Positions 8,176-17,069 of a stretch of DNA of 64,000 nucleotides are shown here, piece after piece; the first letter of the stretch is position 1, and every line of letters starts with the position of its first letter. A program made the translations under genes and the position numbers. The stretch spans positions 372,001 through 436,000 of the forward strand of contig NZ_JADWYI010000001.1 of NCBI RefSeq assembly GCF_016904885.1, read 5' to 3'. A model generated the notes under the pieces. The model was given only the letters and a program-made list of their open reading frames with translations, was not told the DNA's origin and ran no database searches. This stretch comes from Archangium primigenium. GTDB taxonomy: Bacteria > Myxococcota > Myxococcia > Myxococcales > Myxococcaceae.

Positions 8176-8339
8176 GGCACGCCACATTTTGTGCTTAGAG
8201 AGCAGTCAGACACAACGCAATGGACCAGCATCTGCCGGGTCGGGCCGATACCGTTTTCCCGTGGATACGTATAACATCCAACTCAGCGCAAAACTGGACT
8301 TTTGACCACCTCACCGCGTCAACAGTTCAGGAACACGTC

Positions 8340-8972
8340 ATGGCATGGCTTGAAAACGTCATCCTCGAGCACAAGGACCTCCAGAACGAGCGCGTCCAGC
8401 TCACCTCCAAGGGGGCGCTCTACTTCCTCGGACCGAAGCTCACGCTCCGCGACTGCGAGGTGGTCTTGAAGGTCAGCGGGCGAAACCTGCTCCTCCGAGG
8501 CGCCCACTTCATCGACTGCACCATCGAGGTGAAACAGGAACTCAAGAACCACCAGGACTGGGTCTCGGCCACGCTCAAGGGCTGCCGGTTCAAGGGGCGG
8601 ATGTCCGGCTGTGACTTTGGCTACTCGCCCGAGTTCGTCAGCGACGCGGAGTTCGGCGTGGGCGTCATCGAGGACTGCGACTTCACCGAGGCCCGCCTGG
8701 ACGACTGCCGCTTCATGGGCTGCGACCCGAGCACCCTGCGCCTGCCCAAGTGGCCCTGCTTCACCCTCCTGAACCCCCTCCAGCGCAGCCAGGAACTCGC
8801 GCGCCTGCCCTGGCCGGGCAACATCTCGTCCATCGTCATGGCGGGCCACGCCCGGGACCCCTCGGCGACCGTCGCCGTCACCTACCACGCCCCCACCCTC
8901 GCGCGGGACAGCGGCACCACCGCCGAGACCCTCCGCGCCGTGCTCGACACCTGCCCCGACGTCCTCTTCTGA
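8340..8972 (+). CDS. Pentapeptide-like immunity protein, copy 1
   Basis: The 210-residue cytoplasmic-type protein has no signal peptide. Its central part (about 55-135) is a run of pentapeptide-like rungs such as FIDCT, CRFKG, CDFGY, IEDCDFTEARLDDCRF, which would form a right-handed beta-helix. It is one of three tandem paralogues around one SitA-type toxin, the arrangement expected of immunity (SitI-type) genes. The first 99 residues are identical to copy 3 (11309). It follows a toxin-head remnant and foreign DNA rather than an intact toxin, so it is now an orphan immunity gene lying just before the intact toxin gene (10 bases). The start ATG 8340 matches the paralogues; the upstream extension to 8220 lies in inserted DNA. 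Immunity function is inferred from context. Confidence 0.65.
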   Translation: MAWLENVILEHKDLQNERVQLTSKGALYFLGPKLTLRDCEVVLKVSGRNLLLRGAHFIDCTIEVKQELKNHQDWVSATLKGCRFKGRMSGCDFGYSPEFVSDAEFGVGVIEDCDFTEARLDDCRFMGCDPSTLRLPKWPCFTLLNPLQRSQELARLPWPGNISSIVMAGHARDPSATVAVTYHAPTLARDSGTTAETLRAVLDTCPDVLF

Positions 8973-8982
8973 GATCCCCCCG

Positions 8983-10551
8983 ATGACTCCTTCGAGCCCA
9001 TGGTGGCAGGGCGCCCGCCGCTTCCTCGGAACCTGGGCGCTGCTGCTGCTGACCGTGTGGAGCGCCTGCGTGCCGACCCAGCCCCTCCGGCGCGCCGTCC
9101 CCGAGCGCCCCACGGCCCAGGAGGTCGAGGAGGCCGAACCCGTCTGCGGCCTGGAGGAGCCCCTGCCAATAGGGCCCCAGGACTTCCGTGTCGCCTTGCG
9201 ACGGCTCGGTCTGGACCGTCCGCTCCCGGGGAGCCCGCGCGAGACGGCCCGGCGATGGTTGGAGACCCCCGCCGAGCACGCCGAGCCCGCCGGAGGGCTG
9301 GAGGGCGAATGGCTCGCGGAGGTCTCCGACGGACGGGTCCTGACCCTGCTGCCCCTGGACGAGACACCCCTGACCTCCGAGGCCCAGCTCGCCCTGCGCC
9401 GCGACTACGCCCACTGGTGTCAGCGCCAGGGCGGAGGCGACTGCCTGTCCCTGCTCGACGATGGACCGGACCTGCGCGCGGATGACCGGCGCACCCTCGC
9501 GCTGGCCCTGGCCCTGGGCGGCGTCTTGGAGGAGACACGCGGCGCGCTGGAACACGAGGTGACCCACCCTCGCGCCGTCGTGTCCCTGCTCGTGTGGACC
9601 GTGGGCCTGTACGCCATGCTCTGGCTGGTGCCCGAGCCCGTGACGAAGGGCCTGGCCGCCGCGCTCTCCGTGTTGATGGTGGCCTGGCTCGGCGTGGAGA
9701 CGCTGTGGCGGCTGGTGGAGGGCTGGGCGGTACTCACCCGCGACGCCCATGCCGCGACTCGCTTCTCGCAGCTGCGGGGCGCGGGCAGGGACTATGCCCG
9801 CGTCCTGGGCGAGAGCGCGGCCCGAGCCCTCCTGCTGGGCGCGGCGGCGCTCACGGGACGCACCCTTGGCGAGGTCGCCGCCCGCGTGAAGCTGCTGCCC
9901 GGAGCCGAGGCGGCGACGATGCGCTGGGGGCTCCAGACGCATCCCGGGACGGCGGGCGCGCTGGACGTCCTGGCCACGAGTGAAGCCCTCACCCGGGCCG
10001 TGGCGACGGTGGAGCTGGTCGCGGCGACGCCGGGTGGACCGCTCGCGGTGGTGCTACTCCGGCAGCGAGGCACCGGCCCCACCGCCCCCGGAAAAGGCCC
10101 GTCCGTCACCGTGGACCTGAGACACCGGGGCGGCAACCGGCAGGTCCTCCTGGGCAATGGCCAGCGCTGGCACCTGCCGCGGGACACCTCGCCCGAGGCC
10201 ATTCCGAAATCCGACCCGGTTGGCGACCAGCTCCAGGCGGCAGTCTCCCGCGCGGCGAAGGAATGGGGCACTTCACAGTTCACCGACAGGGAGCGCCGCG
10301 CCATCGCGGAGGCTCAGCGACGGGGCAAATATTGGCTGGCGCGTCTCCTGGAGCGCGAGGCCCGAGGTCGTTTCGTCGAGGCTCGGGTGTACGCCCAATT
10401 TCGTGGTCGGCTCAAGTGGAACCGCCAGGGAGTCGATGTGGAAGACGTGGCCACGGGATTCAAGTACGAAATCCTCTCGGGTACACCATCGAACCTGGCG
10501 CGGCACGGTCGACGGATGACAGGCGAATTCTTCCGAATGCTCACCTTCTGA
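8983..10551 (+). CDS. sitA: SitA-type polymorphic toxin lipoprotein
   Basis: The 522-residue protein begins with a signal peptide ending in LTVWSAC, so Cys29 is the probable lipid-bearing residue (the lipobox is loose). A conserved N-terminal body follows (contains VCGLEEPLPIG, RRDYAHWCQRQGGGDCLSLL, ALALGGVLEETR). A hydrophobic pair of helices lies around 195-245 (VVSLLVWTVGLYAMLWLVPEP). The variable C-terminal domain after about residue 360 ends GVDVEDVATGFKYEILSG...RRMTGEFFRMLTF. This matches the SitA plan known in Myxococcus: lipoproteins exchanged through TraA/B outer-membrane fusion, toxic to siblings that lack the immunity protein. From memory it looks closest to the SitA5 type. The C-terminal VD...YEIL spacing could fit a PD-(D/E)xK nuclease, unproven. 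An immunity-like gene follows after 28 bases. Confidence 0.7.
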   Translation: MTPSSPWWQGARRFLGTWALLLLTVWSACVPTQPLRRAVPERPTAQEVEEAEPVCGLEEPLPIGPQDFRVALRRLGLDRPLPGSPRETARRWLETPAEHAEPAGGLEGEWLAEVSDGRVLTLLPLDETPLTSEAQLALRRDYAHWCQRQGGGDCLSLLDDGPDLRADDRRTLALALALGGVLEETRGALEHEVTHPRAVVSLLVWTVGLYAMLWLVPEPVTKGLAAALSVLMVAWLGVETLWRLVEGWAVLTRDAHAATRFSQLRGAGRDYARVLGESAARALLLGAAALTGRTLGEVAARVKLLPGAEAATMRWGLQTHPGTAGALDVLATSEALTRAVATVELVAATPGGPLAVVLLRQRGTGPTAPGKGPSVTVDLRHRGGNRQVLLGNGQRWHLPRDTSPEAIPKSDPVGDQLQAAVSRAAKEWGTSQFTDRERRAIAEAQRRGKYWLARLLEREARGRFVEARVYAQFRGRLKWNRQGVDVEDVATGFKYEILSGTPSNLARHGRRMTGEFFRMLTF

Positions 10552-10579
10552 ATCAACGAGCACACAGCGAGCACACACC

Positions 10580-11212
10580 ATGGCCTGGCTGGAGAACGTC
10601 CTCATCGAGGACAAGAAGCTTCGCGGAGAGCGTCTGGAATTGACGGACAAGAACTCCCTCTACTTCCTGGGTCCGAACCTGGAGCTAAGGGAATGCACCC
10701 TCGTGCTGAAAGTCAGTGCGAGGCGCCTGCTCATCCTGGGCGCTCGCTTCATCGACTGCACCTTCGAGGTGAAGCAGGAGCTGACGAATCATCTGGCCTG
10801 GCGCAGTGCCATCCTCCAGGGTTGCCGGTTCAAGGGGCGGATGTCGGGCTGTGACTTCGGCCATTCCCCCGAGCGCGTCGGCGACGATGAGTTCGGTGTG
10901 GGCGCCATCGAGGACTGCGACTTCACCGAGGCGCGCCTGGACGGCTGCCGCTTCATGGGCTGTGACCCGAGCACCCTGCGCCTTCCCAAGTGGCCCTGCT
11001 TCACCGTCCTGGACCCCATCCCGCGCAGCCAGGAGCTCGCGCGCCTGCCCTGGCCGGGCAACATCTCGCCCATCGTCATGGAGGGAAATGCCCACTCGCC
11101 CTCGGCGACCGTCGCCGTCACCTACCACGCCCCCACCCTCGCGAAAGAGAGCGGCACCACCGTCGAGGCCCTCCGCGCCGTGCTCGACACCTGCCCCGGC
11201 GTCATCTTCTGA
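10580..11212 (+). CDS. Pentapeptide-like immunity protein, copy 2 (probable cognate)
   Basis: This 210-residue paralogue of the genes at 8340 and 11309 lies 28 bases after the intact toxin gene, which makes it the most likely cognate immunity protein. Its N-terminal half differs at many positions from the other two copies (for example LIEDKKLRGERLEL against ILEHKDLQNERVQL). Its C-terminal half is nearly the same as copy 3 (VLDPIPRSQELARLPWPGNIS, APTLAKESGTT). The specificity-determining part is therefore probably the N-terminal half and first beta-helix rungs. No signal peptide or membrane segment is visible, so it would act inside the recipient cell. Immunity role is inferred from position and paralogy. 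Confidence 0.7.
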   Translation: MAWLENVLIEDKKLRGERLELTDKNSLYFLGPNLELRECTLVLKVSARRLLILGARFIDCTFEVKQELTNHLAWRSAILQGCRFKGRMSGCDFGHSPERVGDDEFGVGAIEDCDFTEARLDGCRFMGCDPSTLRLPKWPCFTVLDPIPRSQELARLPWPGNISPIVMEGNAHSPSATVAVTYHAPTLAKESGTTVEALRAVLDTCPGVIF

Positions 11213-11293
11213 ATCCTGTCCGGTACCCCGAGCAATCTGGCGCGGCATGGCAGACGCATGACCGAGCAGTTCTTCCGGATGCTGACCTTCTGA
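11213..11293 (+). pseudogene. 3-prime remnant of a SitA-type toxin gene
   Basis: Immediately after the stop of immunity copy 2, a 26-codon stretch plus TGA encodes ILSGTPSNLARHGRR followed by MTEQFFRMLTF. The first 17 residues (through MT) match the intact toxin exactly and the tail differs only at the GE/EQ pair. It has no start codon and no upstream body. It is the surviving end of a second toxin gene whose immunity gene (11309) still follows 15 bases later, so the unit once was toxin-immunity-toxin-immunity. Confidence 0.85.
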
Positions 11294-11308
11294 GTCAAGG
11301 AGCACGTC

Positions 11309-11941
11309 ATGGCATGGCTTGAAAACGTCATCCTCGAGCACAAGGACCTCCAGAACGAGCGCGTCCAGCTCACCTCAAAGGGGGCGCTCTACTTCCTCGG
11401 GCCGAAGCTCACCCTCCGCGACTGCGAGGTGGTCTTGAAGGTCAGCGGGCGAAACCTGCTCCTCCGAGGCGCCCACTTCATCGACTGCACCATCGAGGTG
11501 AAACAGGAACTCAAGAACCATCAGGACTGGGTCTCGGCCACGCTCAAGGGCTGCCGGTTCAAGGGGCGGATGTCGGGCTGTGACTTCGGCTACTCGCCCG
11601 AGTTCGGCAGTTATGCGGAGTTCGGCGTGGGCGTCATCGAGGACTGCGACTTCACCGAGGCGCGCCTGGACGGCTGCCGCTTCATGGGCTGCGATCCGAG
11701 CACCCTGCGCTTTCCCACGTGGCCCTGCTTCACCGTGCTGGACCCCATCCCGCGCAGCCAGGAGCTCGCGCGCCTGCCCTGGCCGGGCAACATCTCGTCC
11801 ATCGTCATGGCGGGCCATGTCCGGGATCCCTCGGCGACCGTCGCCGTCACCTACCACGCCCCCACCCTCGCGAAGGAGAGCGGCACCACCGCCGAGGCCC
11901 TCCGCGCCGTGCTCGACACCTGCCCCGGCGTCCTCTTCTGA
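11309..11941 (+). CDS. Pentapeptide-like immunity protein, copy 3
   Basis: This 210-residue paralogue is identical to copy 1 over its first 99 residues and close to copy 2 over the last third, so it is mosaic. It follows the tail fossil of a lost toxin gene by 15 bases and has an AAGGAG ribosome site about 5 bases before ATG 11309. It retains the same beta-helix rungs (CRFKG, CDFGY, CDFTEARLDGCRF). As an orphan immunity gene it may protect against a toxin no longer made by this strain but present in relatives. No toxin gene follows; the next gene belongs to a different cluster. Confidence 0.65.
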   Translation: MAWLENVILEHKDLQNERVQLTSKGALYFLGPKLTLRDCEVVLKVSGRNLLLRGAHFIDCTIEVKQELKNHQDWVSATLKGCRFKGRMSGCDFGYSPEFGSYAEFGVGVIEDCDFTEARLDGCRFMGCDPSTLRFPTWPCFTVLDPIPRSQELARLPWPGNISSIVMAGHVRDPSATVAVTYHAPTLAKESGTTAEALRAVLDTCPGVLF

Positions 11942-12138: not shown

Positions 12139-12819
12139 GTGATCACCGTCCCCCACTCCCCATCGACCGATGAGCTCACGGCCTTGCGTGAGGCCTACCT
12201 GTCCGCCCAGCTCAAGGGCAATCGCCGCGAGGCCCTGCGCCTGGTGGTGGAGGAGGGCCTGCTGCGCGGCATCCCCTTCGCCACCCTGCAATCCGAGGTC
12301 ATCCGCAAGGCGCAGTGGGAGATCGGCCGCCTGTGGCAGGAGAACATCATCTCCGTGGCGCAGGAGCACATGGCCACGGCCATCTCCCAGCTCGCCCTGT
12401 CCCACCTCTACCGCTACCTGCCGCGAGACGCCCCCAACGGGCGCACGGTGGTGGTGTCGTGCGTGGAGGGCGAGCTGCACGAGCTGGGCGCGCGCATGGC
12501 GAGCGACTTCCTGGAGATGGCGGGCTTCGACGTGCGCTTCCTCGGCGCGAGTGTGCCCGTGGAGCATCTGGTGCGCGAGGTGAAGAGCGCGCCGCCGGAC
12601 TTGCTGGCGCTCTCGGTGACGATGACCTTCCACCTGCCGGCGCTGCGCGAGGCGGTGGCGGCGGTGCGCGCGGTGGCGCCCCGGCTGCCCCTGCTCGTGG
12701 GGGGACTGGCCCTGGAGTGGGCGCCCGGGGTGCAGGAGGAGCTGGGCGTGCCCTTCATCGGCACGGACGCGCGGGGTCTGGTGGCCACGGCGTGCCGGCT
12801 GCTGGAGGTGCCGGAATGA
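12139..12819 (+). CDS. Stand-alone cobalamin-binding protein with CarH-type light-sensor motifs
   Basis: The 226-residue protein has a helical-bundle half (about 10-95) and a Rossmann-like B12-binding half (about 100-226). The bundle carries Trp66 followed by nine residues and Glu76-His77, the Wx9EH signature of adenosylcobalamin photoreceptors such as CarH. The second half has E112-x-H114-xx-G117, the E/DxHxxG lower-ligand motif with His114, then ALSVTM and VGGLAL. CarH proteins also have a MerR DNA-binding domain; here it is missing. From memory, CarH has a His right after the Trp that binds cobalt after illumination; here it is Gln67. Starts GTG 12139. It overlaps the next gene by four bases and heads an operon with two histidine kinases, so it probably signals through protein contact rather than DNA. 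Confidence 0.8.
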   Translation: MITVPHSPSTDELTALREAYLSAQLKGNRREALRLVVEEGLLRGIPFATLQSEVIRKAQWEIGRLWQENIISVAQEHMATAISQLALSHLYRYLPRDAPNGRTVVVSCVEGELHELGARMASDFLEMAGFDVRFLGASVPVEHLVREVKSAPPDLLALSVTMTFHLPALREAVAAVRAVAPRLPLLVGGLALEWAPGVQEELGVPFIGTDARGLVATACRLLEVPE

Positions 12820-13520
12820 ACGCGCTGGCCCAGGAGGTGGCCGCGCGCACCGAGCGGCTGGCGGCGGCGTCGGTGGAGGGCCTGTACCAGGACCCCTTCT
12901 GGTTCGCCCGCTACGGCGAGGCCCGCGCGCGCCGCTTCGGCAGCGAGGACGCCGTCTTCCACGTGCGCTACCTCGTCCAGGCGCTGGAGACGCGCGACGC
13001 GGGCGTCATGGAGCGCTACGCGCGCTGGCTCCGGGGGCTGCTCGTGCCCCGGGGCATGTCCTCGCGGCACATCGCGACCCACTTCCAGGGCCTGCGCGCC
13101 GCGCTCGTGCACGAGGGCCTGACCTCGCCCCCCCAAGCGGTGGAGTACATGCGGGCCGCCGAGCAGGCGCTCCAGTGGACCGAGGGTCCCGCCCTGGCCC
13201 TGGAGCGGGCCCTGGAGGGCCTGGTGTCCCAGACCGTGCGTGAACTCACCGCACGAGGCGTCTCCCTGGCCGGTCTGGAAGAGGAAGTCCGGCTGCAATT
13301 TTCCTACCTCGCGGACTCCCTGGGCACGGGCCGGAGCGGACTGTTCGTCGACCACGTGAGGTGGTACGCCGGGTTCTGGCCGCGACGGGGACGGGGGGGC
13401 GACTACCGCACGGTGTTGCGGACCTTGGAGGCATCACTGGCCGGTGATGCGTCCCTGGCGGAACTGCCGCGGGTCACCGTGGCGATGGGGCTGACGGCCC
13501 TGGACGAGGAGCACCCGTGA
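12816..13520 (+). CDS. All-helical protein of unknown function in B12-sensor operon
   Basis: Not recognised. The 234-residue product looks entirely alpha-helical, with no signal peptide, membrane helix or catalytic motif. Notable segments are DPFWFARYGEARARRFG and FQGLRAALVHEGL. Its ATG overlaps the stop of the B12-binding gene (ATGA), and its end overlaps the GTG of the following kinase (GTGA), so the three are translationally coupled and likely act together. It could be an adaptor between the cobalamin protein and the kinase, or a ligand-binding helical sensor; both ideas are inference from gene order. Confidence 0.7.
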   Translation: MNALAQEVAARTERLAAASVEGLYQDPFWFARYGEARARRFGSEDAVFHVRYLVQALETRDAGVMERYARWLRGLLVPRGMSSRHIATHFQGLRAALVHEGLTSPPQAVEYMRAAEQALQWTEGPALALERALEGLVSQTVRELTARGVSLAGLEEEVRLQFSYLADSLGTGRSGLFVDHVRWYAGFWPRRGRGGDYRTVLRTLEASLAGDASLAELPRVTVAMGLTALDEEHP

Positions 13521-15547
13521 CGAACGCCGTTCCCACGCCCGTGTGGCATGCGCTGAGCCGCGAAGTGGCCCTGGCCTGTGCCCCCTCCGGGGAGATCCTC
13601 TGGGCGGACGAGCGCGCGGTGCGGATGTTGGAGGCCGTGCCCGGCGCGGCGCTGCGCCAGCTCGCGGCCCCGGGCCTGGAGGAGAAGGTGGAGCGGCTGC
13701 TCACGCTCGCGCGAGACGAGCGCGTGGAGGGCTGGGAGGTGGTGCTGTGCGTGGGGGGCCAGCCGCGCACCTTCGCCTTCCGGGGCATGCCCCACGAGGG
13801 CCACGTGGCGCTGGTGGGCAGCCTGGTCCCCGAGGACTACGCCGCCTCGCTGTCCCAGGTGAGCGAGACGCTCAGCGAGCTCGCGGCGCTGCACCGCGAG
13901 ACGGAGCGCCAGCAGCGCGAGCTCAAGCGGCGCGCGGACGAGCTGTTGCGCCTCAACCGCGAGCTGGAGGAGTCCAACCGCGGCGTGCGCAAGCTGCACG
14001 CGGAGCTGGACGAGAAGACGGAGAGCATGATCCGCACCGCGGAGATCAAGAGCCGGGTGGTGGCCAACGTGAGCCACGAGTTCCGCACCCCGCTGCACTC
14101 CATCCTGGGCCTGGCGCGGCTCTTGCTCAACCCCGCCAACGGGACGCTGTCCGGCGAGCAGCAGAAGCAGGTGCAGTTCATCCGCAGCTCGGCCGAGGCG
14201 CTCTTCGAGCTGGTGAGTGACCTGTTGGACCTGTCCAAGCTGGAGTCGGGCAAGACGACGCTGCGGCCCACGCGCTTTGGCGCCCGGGACTTCCTCGGCG
14301 CGCTGCGCGGGATGATGCGGCCCTTGCTGACGTCGGACTCGCCGGTGGAGCTGCGCTTCGCGGAGCCCCTGGACGAGCTGACGCTGGAGACGGACGAGGC
14401 CAAGGTGAGCCAGGTGCTGCGCAACCTCGTGTCCAACGCGCTCAAGTTCACCGAGAAGGGCCACGTCACGGTGTCCGTGAAGGCCGGCCCGGACGACCGC
14501 GTGCTCTTCCAGGTGCGCGACTCGGGCATCGGCATCGCGCCCGAGTACCACCAGCACATCTTCGAGGAGTTCGCCCAGGTGGACAGCCCCCTGCAGAAGA
14601 AGGTGCGCGGCACGGGCCTGGGCCTGTCCTTGTCGCGGCGCCTGGCCACGTTCCTCGGCGGGGACCTCACCGTGCAGAGCACCCCGGGCCACGGCTCCAC
14701 CTTCACCTTCAGCCTGCCGCGCGTGCACCCGGAGGTGGCCGAGTTCAACGTCATCACCGAGCGCAGCCAGCAGCTGGAGCCCGGACGCTCGCCGGTGCTC
14801 GTGCTGGAGGACGACCGGCAGACGCTCTTCCTCTACGAGAAGTACCTGTCGCGCTCGGGCTTCCAGGTGCTGCCCGTGCGCACGGTGGACGAGGCGCGCC
14901 GCACGCTGCAGCGCGTGCGCCCGGCCGCCGTGGTGCTCGACGTGATGCTCGAGGGCGAGACGAGCTGGAGCTTCCTGTCCGAGCTCAAGACGAACGAGGC
15001 CACGCGCGACATCCCCATCCTCGTGGTGACGCTCATGGACCGCGAGCAGAAGGCGCGCGCGCTCGGCGCGGACGAGTTCTGGCTCAAGCCCGTGGCCGAG
15101 GAGCAGCTGTTGCGCAAGCTGGCCAACATGGCCCGCGCCGCGCCCGTCAAGAAGCTGCTCATCATCGACGACGACGACGTGCACCGCTACCTCTTCCGGC
15201 AGATGCTCTCGGGCACGCCCTACGTGCTGAACGAGGCCGACAACGGCCCGGAGGGCATCCGCCTGGCGCGCGAGCAATCCCCGGACCTCATCTTCCTGGA
15301 CTTCGTGCTCCCGGACATGACGGCCTTCGACGTGCTGGACGAGCTCAAGGTGGATCCGCGCACGCGCGACATCCCCGTCATCCTGCACACCTCGCACCAG
15401 CTCAACGAGGAGGAGCGCCAGCGCCTGGCCAAGGAGACCTCCACCATCCTGGCCAAGCACACCGTGAGCCGCGAGGTCGCCATCGCGCGCATCCGGGACG
15501 CCCTGCACAAGAACCTGGGCAGCGGCGCGGAGGTCCACCGTGGCTGA
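13517..15547 (+). CDS. Hybrid histidine kinase with two receiver domains
   Basis: This 676-residue soluble protein has, in order: a PAS-like N-terminal region (about 5-110), a coiled coil (about 115-175), HisKA with His187 (SHEFRTPLHS), and HATPase (LVSNALKF, DSGIGIA, GTGLGLSLS). Two receivers follow, with Asp475 (VLDVML) and Asp595 (FLDFVLPD). The coiled coil directly before HisKA is where a signal from a partner protein could be transmitted. There is no membrane segment, which fits cytoplasmic sensing by the B12 protein encoded upstream. It starts GTG 13517 inside the stop of the previous gene, and its end overlaps the next kinase gene by eight bases. Confidence 0.9.
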   Translation: MTNAVPTPVWHALSREVALACAPSGEILWADERAVRMLEAVPGAALRQLAAPGLEEKVERLLTLARDERVEGWEVVLCVGGQPRTFAFRGMPHEGHVALVGSLVPEDYAASLSQVSETLSELAALHRETERQQRELKRRADELLRLNRELEESNRGVRKLHAELDEKTESMIRTAEIKSRVVANVSHEFRTPLHSILGLARLLLNPANGTLSGEQQKQVQFIRSSAEALFELVSDLLDLSKLESGKTTLRPTRFGARDFLGALRGMMRPLLTSDSPVELRFAEPLDELTLETDEAKVSQVLRNLVSNALKFTEKGHVTVSVKAGPDDRVLFQVRDSGIGIAPEYHQHIFEEFAQVDSPLQKKVRGTGLGLSLSRRLATFLGGDLTVQSTPGHGSTFTFSLPRVHPEVAEFNVITERSQQLEPGRSPVLVLEDDRQTLFLYEKYLSRSGFQVLPVRTVDEARRTLQRVRPAAVVLDVMLEGETSWSFLSELKTNEATRDIPILVVTLMDREQKARALGADEFWLKPVAEEQLLRKLANMARAAPVKKLLIIDDDDVHRYLFRQMLSGTPYVLNEADNGPEGIRLAREQSPDLIFLDFVLPDMTAFDVLDELKVDPRTRDIPVILHTSHQLNEEERQRLAKETSTILAKHTVSREVAIARIRDALHKNLGSGAEVHRG

Positions 15548-17069
15548 GCACGCGTTGGGAGAGACGATCCTCGTCGTCAACGATGATCCGGCGAGCCTCT
15601 ACCTGGCCTCGCGGCTCCTGCAGACCTCGGGCTACCGGGTCTTCGAGGCCGCCACGGGCCTGTCGGCGCTGGCGATCGCCGAGCGCGAGCGGCCGGACGT
15701 GGTGGTGCTGGACGTGAAGCTGCCGGACATCAGCGGCTACGAGGTGTGCAAGCGCCTGCGCGCCCACCCCGAGACGGCCTCGCTCGCGGTGATGCACACC
15801 TCGGCCACCTTCGTGACGCCGGACAAGAAGGTGCGCGGCCTGGATGGCGGCGCGGACGCCTACCTCACCGAGCCCTTCGAGGGCGAGGAGCTGCTGGCCA
15901 CGGTGCGCTCGCTCTTGCGCATGCGCCACGCCGAGCAGGCCCTGCGCCGGCGCGCCGAGCACCTCACCGAGGCGGACCGGCGCAAGGACCTGTTCCTCGC
16001 CATGCTCGCCCACGAGCTGCGCAACCCCCTCGCCGCCATCGGCACCGCCGCCGGCATCCTCGAGCGCCGCGGGCCGGTGGACCCGCGCGAGTCGCGGATG
16101 ATCGCCATCATCCAGCGGCAGACCAACCACCTGTCGCGGCTGGTGGATGACCTCCTGGACGTGAGCCGCATCACCCGGGGCAAGGTGGAGCTGCGCCGCG
16201 CGCGGGTGGACCTGCGCCACGTGCTCGAGCAGGTGCTCCTCTCCTTCCGGCCCGTGGCCGAGGCGCGGGGCCTCACGCTGACGGCCCGGGTCCCGGACGC
16301 GCCCGCGTGGGTGGACGCGGACACGACGCGCCTGGAGCAGGTCTTCACCAACCTGCTCGACAACGCGGCCAAGTACACGGACCGGGGCGGCACGCTCTGG
16401 CTGGACCTGAGCCCGGCCCCCAACGCCGAGCACCTGCCGGGGGCCCGCGTGAGCGTGCGCGACACGGGCATCGGCATCCGCCACGACGTGCTGCCCACCG
16501 TCTTCGAGCTGTTCGCCCAGGCGGACGAGTCCCTCGAGCGCTCGCGCGGGGGCCTGGGCATCGGGCTCACGCTGGTGCGCAACATGGTGGAGCTGCACGG
16601 CGGCCAGGTGGAGGCCCACAGCGAGGGGCCCGGCCGCGGCAGCGAGTTCGTGGTGTGGCTGCCCCTCCTGCCCGCCGCCCCCGATGAGGTGTCCTCCTCC
16701 GAGGGCCCCCGGCGCGGCCGGCACATCCTGCTCGTGGAGGAGAACGAGGCGGTGAGCCACGCGCTGCGCGAGCGGCTGGAGACGTGGGGTCACCAGGTGG
16801 AGGTGGCCGCGGACGCGCTGCGGGGGCTGGAGCTCGCGGTGCGGCGCGCGCCGGAGGTCGCCCTGGTGGCGCTCTCGCGGCCCGGGGAGGACGGCTACCG
16901 CATGGCCGAGACGCTCCGCGCGCGGCTGGGCAACACCATCCGGCTCGTGGCCCTCTCCGCCCAGGAGGCCCCCGGCGACCCGAGCCGGCTGCGCCAGGCG
17001 GGCTTCGATCTGCACCTGGTCCGCCCGGTGACACCCGACGAGCTGTGCCGCCTGCTGTCCGAGCTGTGA
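15540..17069 (+). CDS. Receiver-histidine kinase with C-terminal pseudo-receiver
   Basis: The 509-residue protein starts with a receiver (Asp58 in VVLDVKLPD). A HisKA with His158 (AHELRNPLAA) follows, then HATPase (NLLDNAAKY, DTGIGI, GLGIGLTLV) and a last receiver-like domain from about 395. That domain has EEN in place of the acidic pair, and VALVALS where a receiver has a phospho-accepting Asp, so it cannot be phosphorylated in the normal way. The N-terminal receiver probably takes phosphate from the upstream hybrid kinase, making this the next step in a relay. The GTG start at 15540 lies inside the previous gene; the reading starts MAEHALGE and gives a receiver of normal length. Last of four overlapping genes. 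Confidence 0.88.
   Translation: MAEHALGETILVVNDDPASLYLASRLLQTSGYRVFEAATGLSALAIAERERPDVVVLDVKLPDISGYEVCKRLRAHPETASLAVMHTSATFVTPDKKVRGLDGGADAYLTEPFEGEELLATVRSLLRMRHAEQALRRRAEHLTEADRRKDLFLAMLAHELRNPLAAIGTAAGILERRGPVDPRESRMIAIIQRQTNHLSRLVDDLLDVSRITRGKVELRRARVDLRHVLEQVLLSFRPVAEARGLTLTARVPDAPAWVDADTTRLEQVFTNLLDNAAKYTDRGGTLWLDLSPAPNAEHLPGARVSVRDTGIGIRHDVLPTVFELFAQADESLERSRGGLGIGLTLVRNMVELHGGQVEAHSEGPGRGSEFVVWLPLLPAAPDEVSSSEGPRRGRHILLVEENEAVSHALRERLETWGHQVEVAADALRGLELAVRRAPEVALVALSRPGEDGYRMAETLRARLGNTIRLVALSAQEAPGDPSRLRQAGFDLHLVRPVTPDELCRLLSEL

Follow-up and report, generated by a model that had tools for sequence, protein, structure and literature searches.

A putative two-subunit B12- and bilin-based light sensor encoded with two hybrid histidine kinases in Archangium primigenium

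Results

Four overlapping genes at the locus

We analysed a stretch of 64,000 nucleotides from the genome of the soil myxobacterium Archangium primigenium (hereafter the window; contig NZ_JADWYI010000001.1, positions 372,001 to 436,000), in which four genes on the + strand occupy positions 12139 to 17069. The original prediction had placed a cobalamin protein here, coupled through gene overlaps of 4, 4 and 8 bases to a helical protein and two histidine kinases, and both the overlaps and the coordinates were borne out by the open reading frames, which are listed below together with the sites discussed in the text.

12139..12819, + strand: P0001, 226 aa, GTG start; free-standing B12-binding protein (four-helix bundle and Rossmann domain), photocobilin-type B12 subunit
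12334..12369, + strand: P0001 adenosyl-pocket motif W66-Q67...E76-H77, invariant in 20 sequences, with Gln at the CarH His132 position
12472..12489, + strand: P0001 E112-x-H114-xx-G117; H114 is expected to be the lower axial ligand of Co (His108 in SasPcob, numbered as in PMC10979010)
12816..13520, + strand: P0002, 234 aa, ATG start; tandem bilin-type globin (kin of photoglobin and BBAG-2), second photocobilin subunit
12816..13175, + strand: P0002 residues 1-120, the N-terminal globin with the predicted biliverdin site
12948-12950 (D45), 13026-13028 (W71) and 13050-13061 (RGMS, 79-82), + strand: residues of the predicted biliverdin site of P0002
13182..13517, + strand: P0002 residues 123-234, the C-terminal globin-like repeat, carrying an acidic residue at 157 and W183; bilin binding uncertain
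13517..15547, + strand: P0003, 676 aa, GTG start; hybrid kinase 1 with PAS-like N-terminus, HisKA, HATPase and two receivers
within 13517..15547, + strand: P0003 HisKA H187 and receiver D475 and D595 (Pfam and homologue alignment)
15540..17069, + strand: P0004, 509 aa, GTG start; hybrid kinase 2 with receiver, HisKA, HATPase and receiver
within 15540..17069, + strand: P0004 receiver D58, HisKA H158 and last receiver A444 (Pfam and homologue alignment)

No consensus promoters or terminators were found at the locus; at about 71% GC, a consensus search is a poor guide. Downstream of the operon lies a gene for a chemoreceptor with a single Cache domain (P0005, 17444-19093), which is kept after the operon in the Myxococcus, Pyxidicoccus, Archangium and Hyalangium loci. 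The Corallococcus and Nannocystis loci that were fetched showed none, and P0005 was considered as a member of the system and left out.

Upstream of the operon, the region 8300-11941 contains an open reading frame of 522 aa with a lipobox-like N-terminus (8983-10551), followed by tandem 210-aa frames that are weakly pentapeptide-like (10580-11212 and 11309-11941). A repeat is found in three copies around these frames (at 8324, 10564 and 11293), and positions 11212-11305 duplicate the end of the 522-aa frame. We take this region to resemble a polymorphic lipoprotein toxin of the SitA-like kind, with spare toxin ends and immunity genes.

The B12 protein resembles photocobilins

Pfam analysis of P0001 showed B12 domains only (B12-binding_2, PF02607, 7e-10; B12-binding, PF02310, 3.7e-20), which confirmed the absence of a DNA-binding domain noted earlier from the sequence. 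The motifs that had led to a CarH-type label, Wx9EH (W66, E76-H77) and ExHxxG (H114), were indeed present, and W66, Q67, E76, H77, E112 and H114 were all invariant in an alignment of 20 sequences. The label itself needed changing, in that the closest solved relatives of P0001 were photocobilins and not CarH. In a sequence search of the PDB, the best matches were SasPcob (8j2x, 6.2e-29; 8j2w, 8.3e-29) and AbPcob (8j2y, 2.5e-25), and the match to CarH (5c8a, 1.6e-9) was 20 orders weaker.

SasPcob reads LWQ at the pocket motif, with Gln following Trp as Q67 does in P0001, and its light state is water- or hydroxide-ligated and monomeric, not bis-His (PMC10979010). The H132A mutant of Thermus CarH (TtCarH) also gives a water-ligated product, yet is mostly tetrameric (PMC10442372). 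These precedents support the suggestion, made when the locus was first described, that Q67 could alter the light-state chemistry. The MerR-B12 protein of the same genome retains Trp-His. A single MerR-B12 gene of the CarH type is present there (L063, 7753-8661; C1 near 9.046 Mb), close to carotenoid-type genes, and having one CarH/CarA homologue agrees with the reported absence of CarA from Cystobacter and Melittangium (PMC9304148).

NCBIfam corrinoid-protein models match P0001 weakly and far below their cut-offs, which would be in line with a methyltransferase system in which P0001 is the corrinoid methyl carrier. We rejected this candidate as exceedingly improbable, given that none of the neighbouring genes encodes a methyltransferase, the adenosyl-pocket motif shows no variation and photocobilins match P0001 far better.

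A second alternative is that light is incidental, and that the pair of P0001 and P0002 acts as a tetrapyrrole, oxygen or redox sensor, reporting the supply of adenosylcobalamin or biliverdin, or the redox state of cobalt, to the kinases. This would be consistent with the dependence of the CarH photoresponse on oxygen and cobalt redox state (PMC10442372), with the differing enzyme activities of apo and holo photocobilins (PMC10979010), and with the lack of a light-specific output gene at the locus itself. The photoreceptor signature (W-x9-EH and ExH) is, however, invariant, a signature shared with proteins of demonstrated photoactivity (PMC11796333, PMC10979010), and we consider a role of this kind improbable.

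P0002 is a tandem bilin-type globin

P0002 had no Pfam match and no PDB match by sequence alone, and a Foldseek search with its model returned nothing below E 0.1. The protein was resolved by a family profile and by comparison of its AlphaFold2 fold (pLDDT 94.2, pTM 0.90) using VIA-align. Residues 1-120 matched the globin domain of SasPcob best (Z 16.6, 1.7 A over 113 residues, 19% identity), and the next matches were allophycocyanins and the biliverdin-binding smURFP. The predicted helical protein is a bilin-type globin with D45 and W71 in place.

D45 corresponds to Asp270 of SasPcob by an ungapped extension just outside the segment reported by hhalign, W71 corresponds to Trp296 with a gap-free stretch between the two residues, and RGMS (79-82) aligns with RGVS; the SasPcob numbering is that of the paper, equal to the 8j2w chain index plus 6 as derived from His108 and Trp296. 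In SasPcob, Asp270 touches three pyrrole rings of biliverdin, and Trp296 touches ring D and the corrin (PMC10979010). D45 was found in 35 of 35 homologues of P0002 and W71 in 32 of 35, and position 82 was Cys in 27 and Ser in 8 of the 35, the copy in the window reading RGMS. RGMC is the motif of BBAG-2 globins, which were purified with biliverdin, and is reported in only some Myxococcales globins (PMC10151467).

The two halves of P0002 are homologous to each other (98.2% probability, E 3.4e-14), indicating a tandem arrangement, and it is the C-terminal half that matched SasPcob by profile search (1.8e-4). This second half carries Glu or Asp at 157 and W183 at places corresponding to the site in the first half. 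A tandem globin carrying two bilins (at D45/W71 and E157/W183) would make a three-chromophore, two-subunit photoreceptor feeding two hybrid kinases, in which the halves or the kinases could report different wavelength bands, but we regard this elaboration as doubtful.

In A. primigenium, as in almost every relative, the B12 protein and the globin come from two overlapping genes and not as one chain. In Nannocystis pusilla (L119), a 2-base deletion relative to L125, possibly an assembly error, places both in one open reading frame of 453 residues. This frame, in which the linker and the last part of the Rossmann domain are frameshifted, was folded without alteration to serve as a proxy. Over both domains, the model aligned with SasPcob at Z 23.2 and a loose 4.4 A for 303 residues, a comparison made with a frameshifted linker, unpaired rows and no ligands; its B12 part aligned with CarH at about 4.0 A over 177 residues. 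The globin in this frameshifted proxy appears to be placed roughly as in SasPcob, which is supportive and not proof.

Two hybrid histidine kinases

The two soluble histidine kinases that had been predicted were recovered by Pfam and can be refined to hybrid kinases, as P0003 and P0004 each contain HisKA, HATPase and two receivers, with the kinase core motifs intact in 22 of 22 homologues. The N-terminus of P0003 is PAS-like: PAS_4 matched 4 of 19 homologues, with 2.7e-4 as the best value, and did not match the copy in the window. In P0004, A444 (16869-16871) occupies the phospho-Asp position of the last receiver, where 21 of 22 homologues have D, and adjacent motif residues are changed too. 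This domain may be a pseudo-receiver in this species only, in which case phosphate would have to leave via another receiver.

Conservation and loss of the gene set

P0002 was found in 60 of the 145 genomes of the order. The B12, globin, kinase 1 and kinase 2 genes were co-directional in 21 of the 25 loci fetched around it, and the kinase genes overlapped by 8 bases in all but one of these 21 (20/21). Among the Myxococcaceae loci that we examined, most keep the set intact. The operon is also present in named Myxococcus (M. xanthus AM003, L111), Corallococcus, Pyxidicoccus, Archangium and Hyalangium loci, and the same four genes are found as two divergent pairs in seven loci, six from Nannocystis and one from Kofleriaceae. 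Because the four genes recur jointly in many species and in two gene orders, the set does not reflect chance. That all four were kept through rearrangement argues for a joint function, within the limit that linkage cannot show contact, and this linkage in two gene orders supports the original proposal that a protein of the B12 photosensor type is coupled to a phosphorelay and not to DNA.

One further contig, titled Comamonas sp. KCTC 72670 (L101), contains the full myxobacterial operon at Myxococcus-like identity, and for this reason the record looks misnamed or contaminated.

Losses were also seen. Four genomes of one genus (G101, G110, G112 and G113) have kept the globin without an orthologue of P0001, their best matches being about 30% identical; in the three of these loci that were fetched (L054, L055 and L058) the kinase genes are gone, W71 has become Ser and RGMC reads RGLS. 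Another locus (L115) has a truncated B12 gene, deleted kinases and an intact globin. The B12 and kinase genes thus appear to be lost jointly, and the corrin-facing Trp to go once the B12 partner is gone, in what are few events, with three of the sequences sharing ancestry.

We asked whether the B12-globin pair and the kinases might have separate functions in one operon, the kinases responding, by way of PAS-like and receiver domains of their own, to a different signal. Kinase 1 does carry a PAS-like input of its own, one locus (L098) has kept the B12 protein, the globin and kinase 2 after losing most of kinase 1, and Thermomicrobiales MAGs have the pair without these kinases. Set against the linkage in two gene orders and the joint loss of B12 and kinase genes, these cases leave such a separation quite improbable in our view.

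In three genomes of the same genus as the window (G073-G075), the globin is absent and a stand-alone B12 protein (LWQQG..EEH or AQEH; about 52% identity to P0001) is encoded divergently from an unrelated histidine kinase (L133, 7809-8498; L134; L135, 6563-7351). This locus could possibly represent a B12-only sensor-kinase pair.

Supply of the bilin chromophore

Heme oxygenase was present in 60 of 60 globin-positive genomes and in 9 of 85 others, a co-occurrence confounded by descent and by phytochromes. The A. primigenium genome itself has two phytochrome genes, one of them beside heme oxygenase. Next to the globin gene lies a heme oxygenase gene in L120, a Kofleriaceae MAG, and a bilin reductase gene in L118 and L126, two Thermomicrobiales MAGs. 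The bilin reductase family PF05996 had no match in the A. primigenium genome, so biliverdin is the expected bilin.

In two Thermomicrobiaceae MAGs (L126, 521-2306; L127, 5325-6475), a gene for a small monooxygenase of the ABM family follows the B12-globin pair, overlapping it by 4 bases, and in L126 the bilin reductase gene comes next. This gene group may be a compact bilin-making photosensor cluster.

These observations bear on the alternative that the locus encodes a CarH-type, B12-only light sensor, with P0002 serving as a structural adaptor to the kinases and carrying no bilin. The photocobilin AbPcob binds biliverdin poorly, having largely lost it, and the copy of P0002 in the window has Ser and not Cys at the RGMC position; moreover, a related B12 protein lies near a kinase in the absence of a P0002-type globin in G073-G075. 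However, Asp270, which is the residue lost in AbPcob (PMC10979010), is retained as D45 in every homologue, heme oxygenase or bilin reductase genes adjoin the globin in relatives, and BBAG-2 globins with RGMC bind biliverdin (PMC10151467). We therefore consider a bilin-free adaptor unlikely.

Discussion

The explanation that we judge likely is a photocobilin divided between two subunits, an adenosylcobalamin protein (P0001) and a biliverdin protein (P0002), whose photolysis would be read by the hybrid kinases. We infer chromophore binding, photochemistry, complex formation, kinase contact and output from the comparisons above. The apparent existence of B12-kinase pairing without a globin, as in G073-G075, speaks against such a split photocobilin.

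According to this model, P0001 would bind adenosylcobalamin in a His-on form, with H114 as the lower ligand and W66, E76 and H77 forming the adenosyl pocket. The N-terminal globin of P0002 would bind biliverdin, with D45 on the pyrrole nitrogens and W71 against the corrin, and P0002 would dock on P0001. Green light absorbed via the cobalamin, or red light absorbed via the bilin and passed on, would break the Co-C bond. Since Q67 replaces His132 of CarH, the light product is predicted to be water- or hydroxide-ligated, and the complex would change its assembly state. This change would be read by protein contact with hybrid kinase 1, through its PAS-like input, with hybrid kinase 2, or with both, and would alter the flow of phosphate through the receiver domains.

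SasPcob-type proteins couple both chromophores (PMC10979010). By analogy, the P0001-P0002 pair should respond to red light as well, and light of several colours probably steers the two kinases. There is precedent for control of an enzyme by a diffusible sensor, because a separate diguanylate cyclase was regulated in trans by photocobilin domains (PMC10979010).

What BBAG globins do has been described as not yet known (PMC10151467), and the enzyme output demonstrated for photocobilins is a diguanylate cyclase (PMC10979010). The operon offers a testable answer to both, in the form of a B12-bilin complex as the input of a phosphorelay. It occurs in culturable bacteria, including Myxococcus xanthus, where deletion and a light test are feasible, and a B12-bilin sensor made of two separable subunits would be of use in optogenetics as a red/green part.

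Among known systems, photoglobin, attributed to Schneider et al. 2022, is reported to be a bilin-type globin without heme that is linked to B12 domains in signalling proteins. The photocobilins SasPcob and AbDPcob (Zhang et al. 2024, PMC10979010) share with the present pair a B12 domain with W/EH and ExH motifs, a bilin globin with the equivalents of Asp270 and Trp296 and, in SasPcob, the Gln after Trp, and they too provide a standalone sensor able to act on a partner. They differ in being one chain and not two genes, in lacking a tandem globin, and in their output through a diguanylate cyclase instead of two hybrid histidine kinases. From its sequence, the pair would work like a photocobilin as a split variant, and is not a strict member of the group because the B12 domain and the globin sit in two overlapping genes.

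P0002 most likely belongs to the BBAG-2 or B12-associated globins of Myxococcales (Rockwell et al. 2023, PMC10151467), with which it shares its position beside a B12-binding protein, a heme oxygenase in the genome and the RGM[CS] motif. It is not a strict BBAG-2 globin because its own genome has no PF05996 match, so that, unlike in the BBAG-2 pre-2 clusters, the (pre-2) bilin reductase is absent. The copy in the window has Ser in place of the motif Cys. CarH, the MerR-B12 photoreceptor repressor, has the same AdoCbl-type B12 domain and adenosyl-pocket residues as P0001; unlike CarH, P0001 has no MerR-type DNA-binding domain, carries Q67 for His132 (the residue of the bis-His light state) and has a partner globin, and the sequence match between the two is far weaker.

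Pairs of B12 proteins and globins together with heme oxygenase had already been noted in Myxococcales (PMC10151467), and photocobilins were known (PMC10979010). The main text of Rockwell et al. 2023 (PMC10151467) describes neither the kinases nor the tandem architecture, and no link of the B12-globin pair to these kinases was found in the literature searched, so that earlier notice elsewhere is possible. Within that literature, the tandem globin and its link to two kinases appear new.
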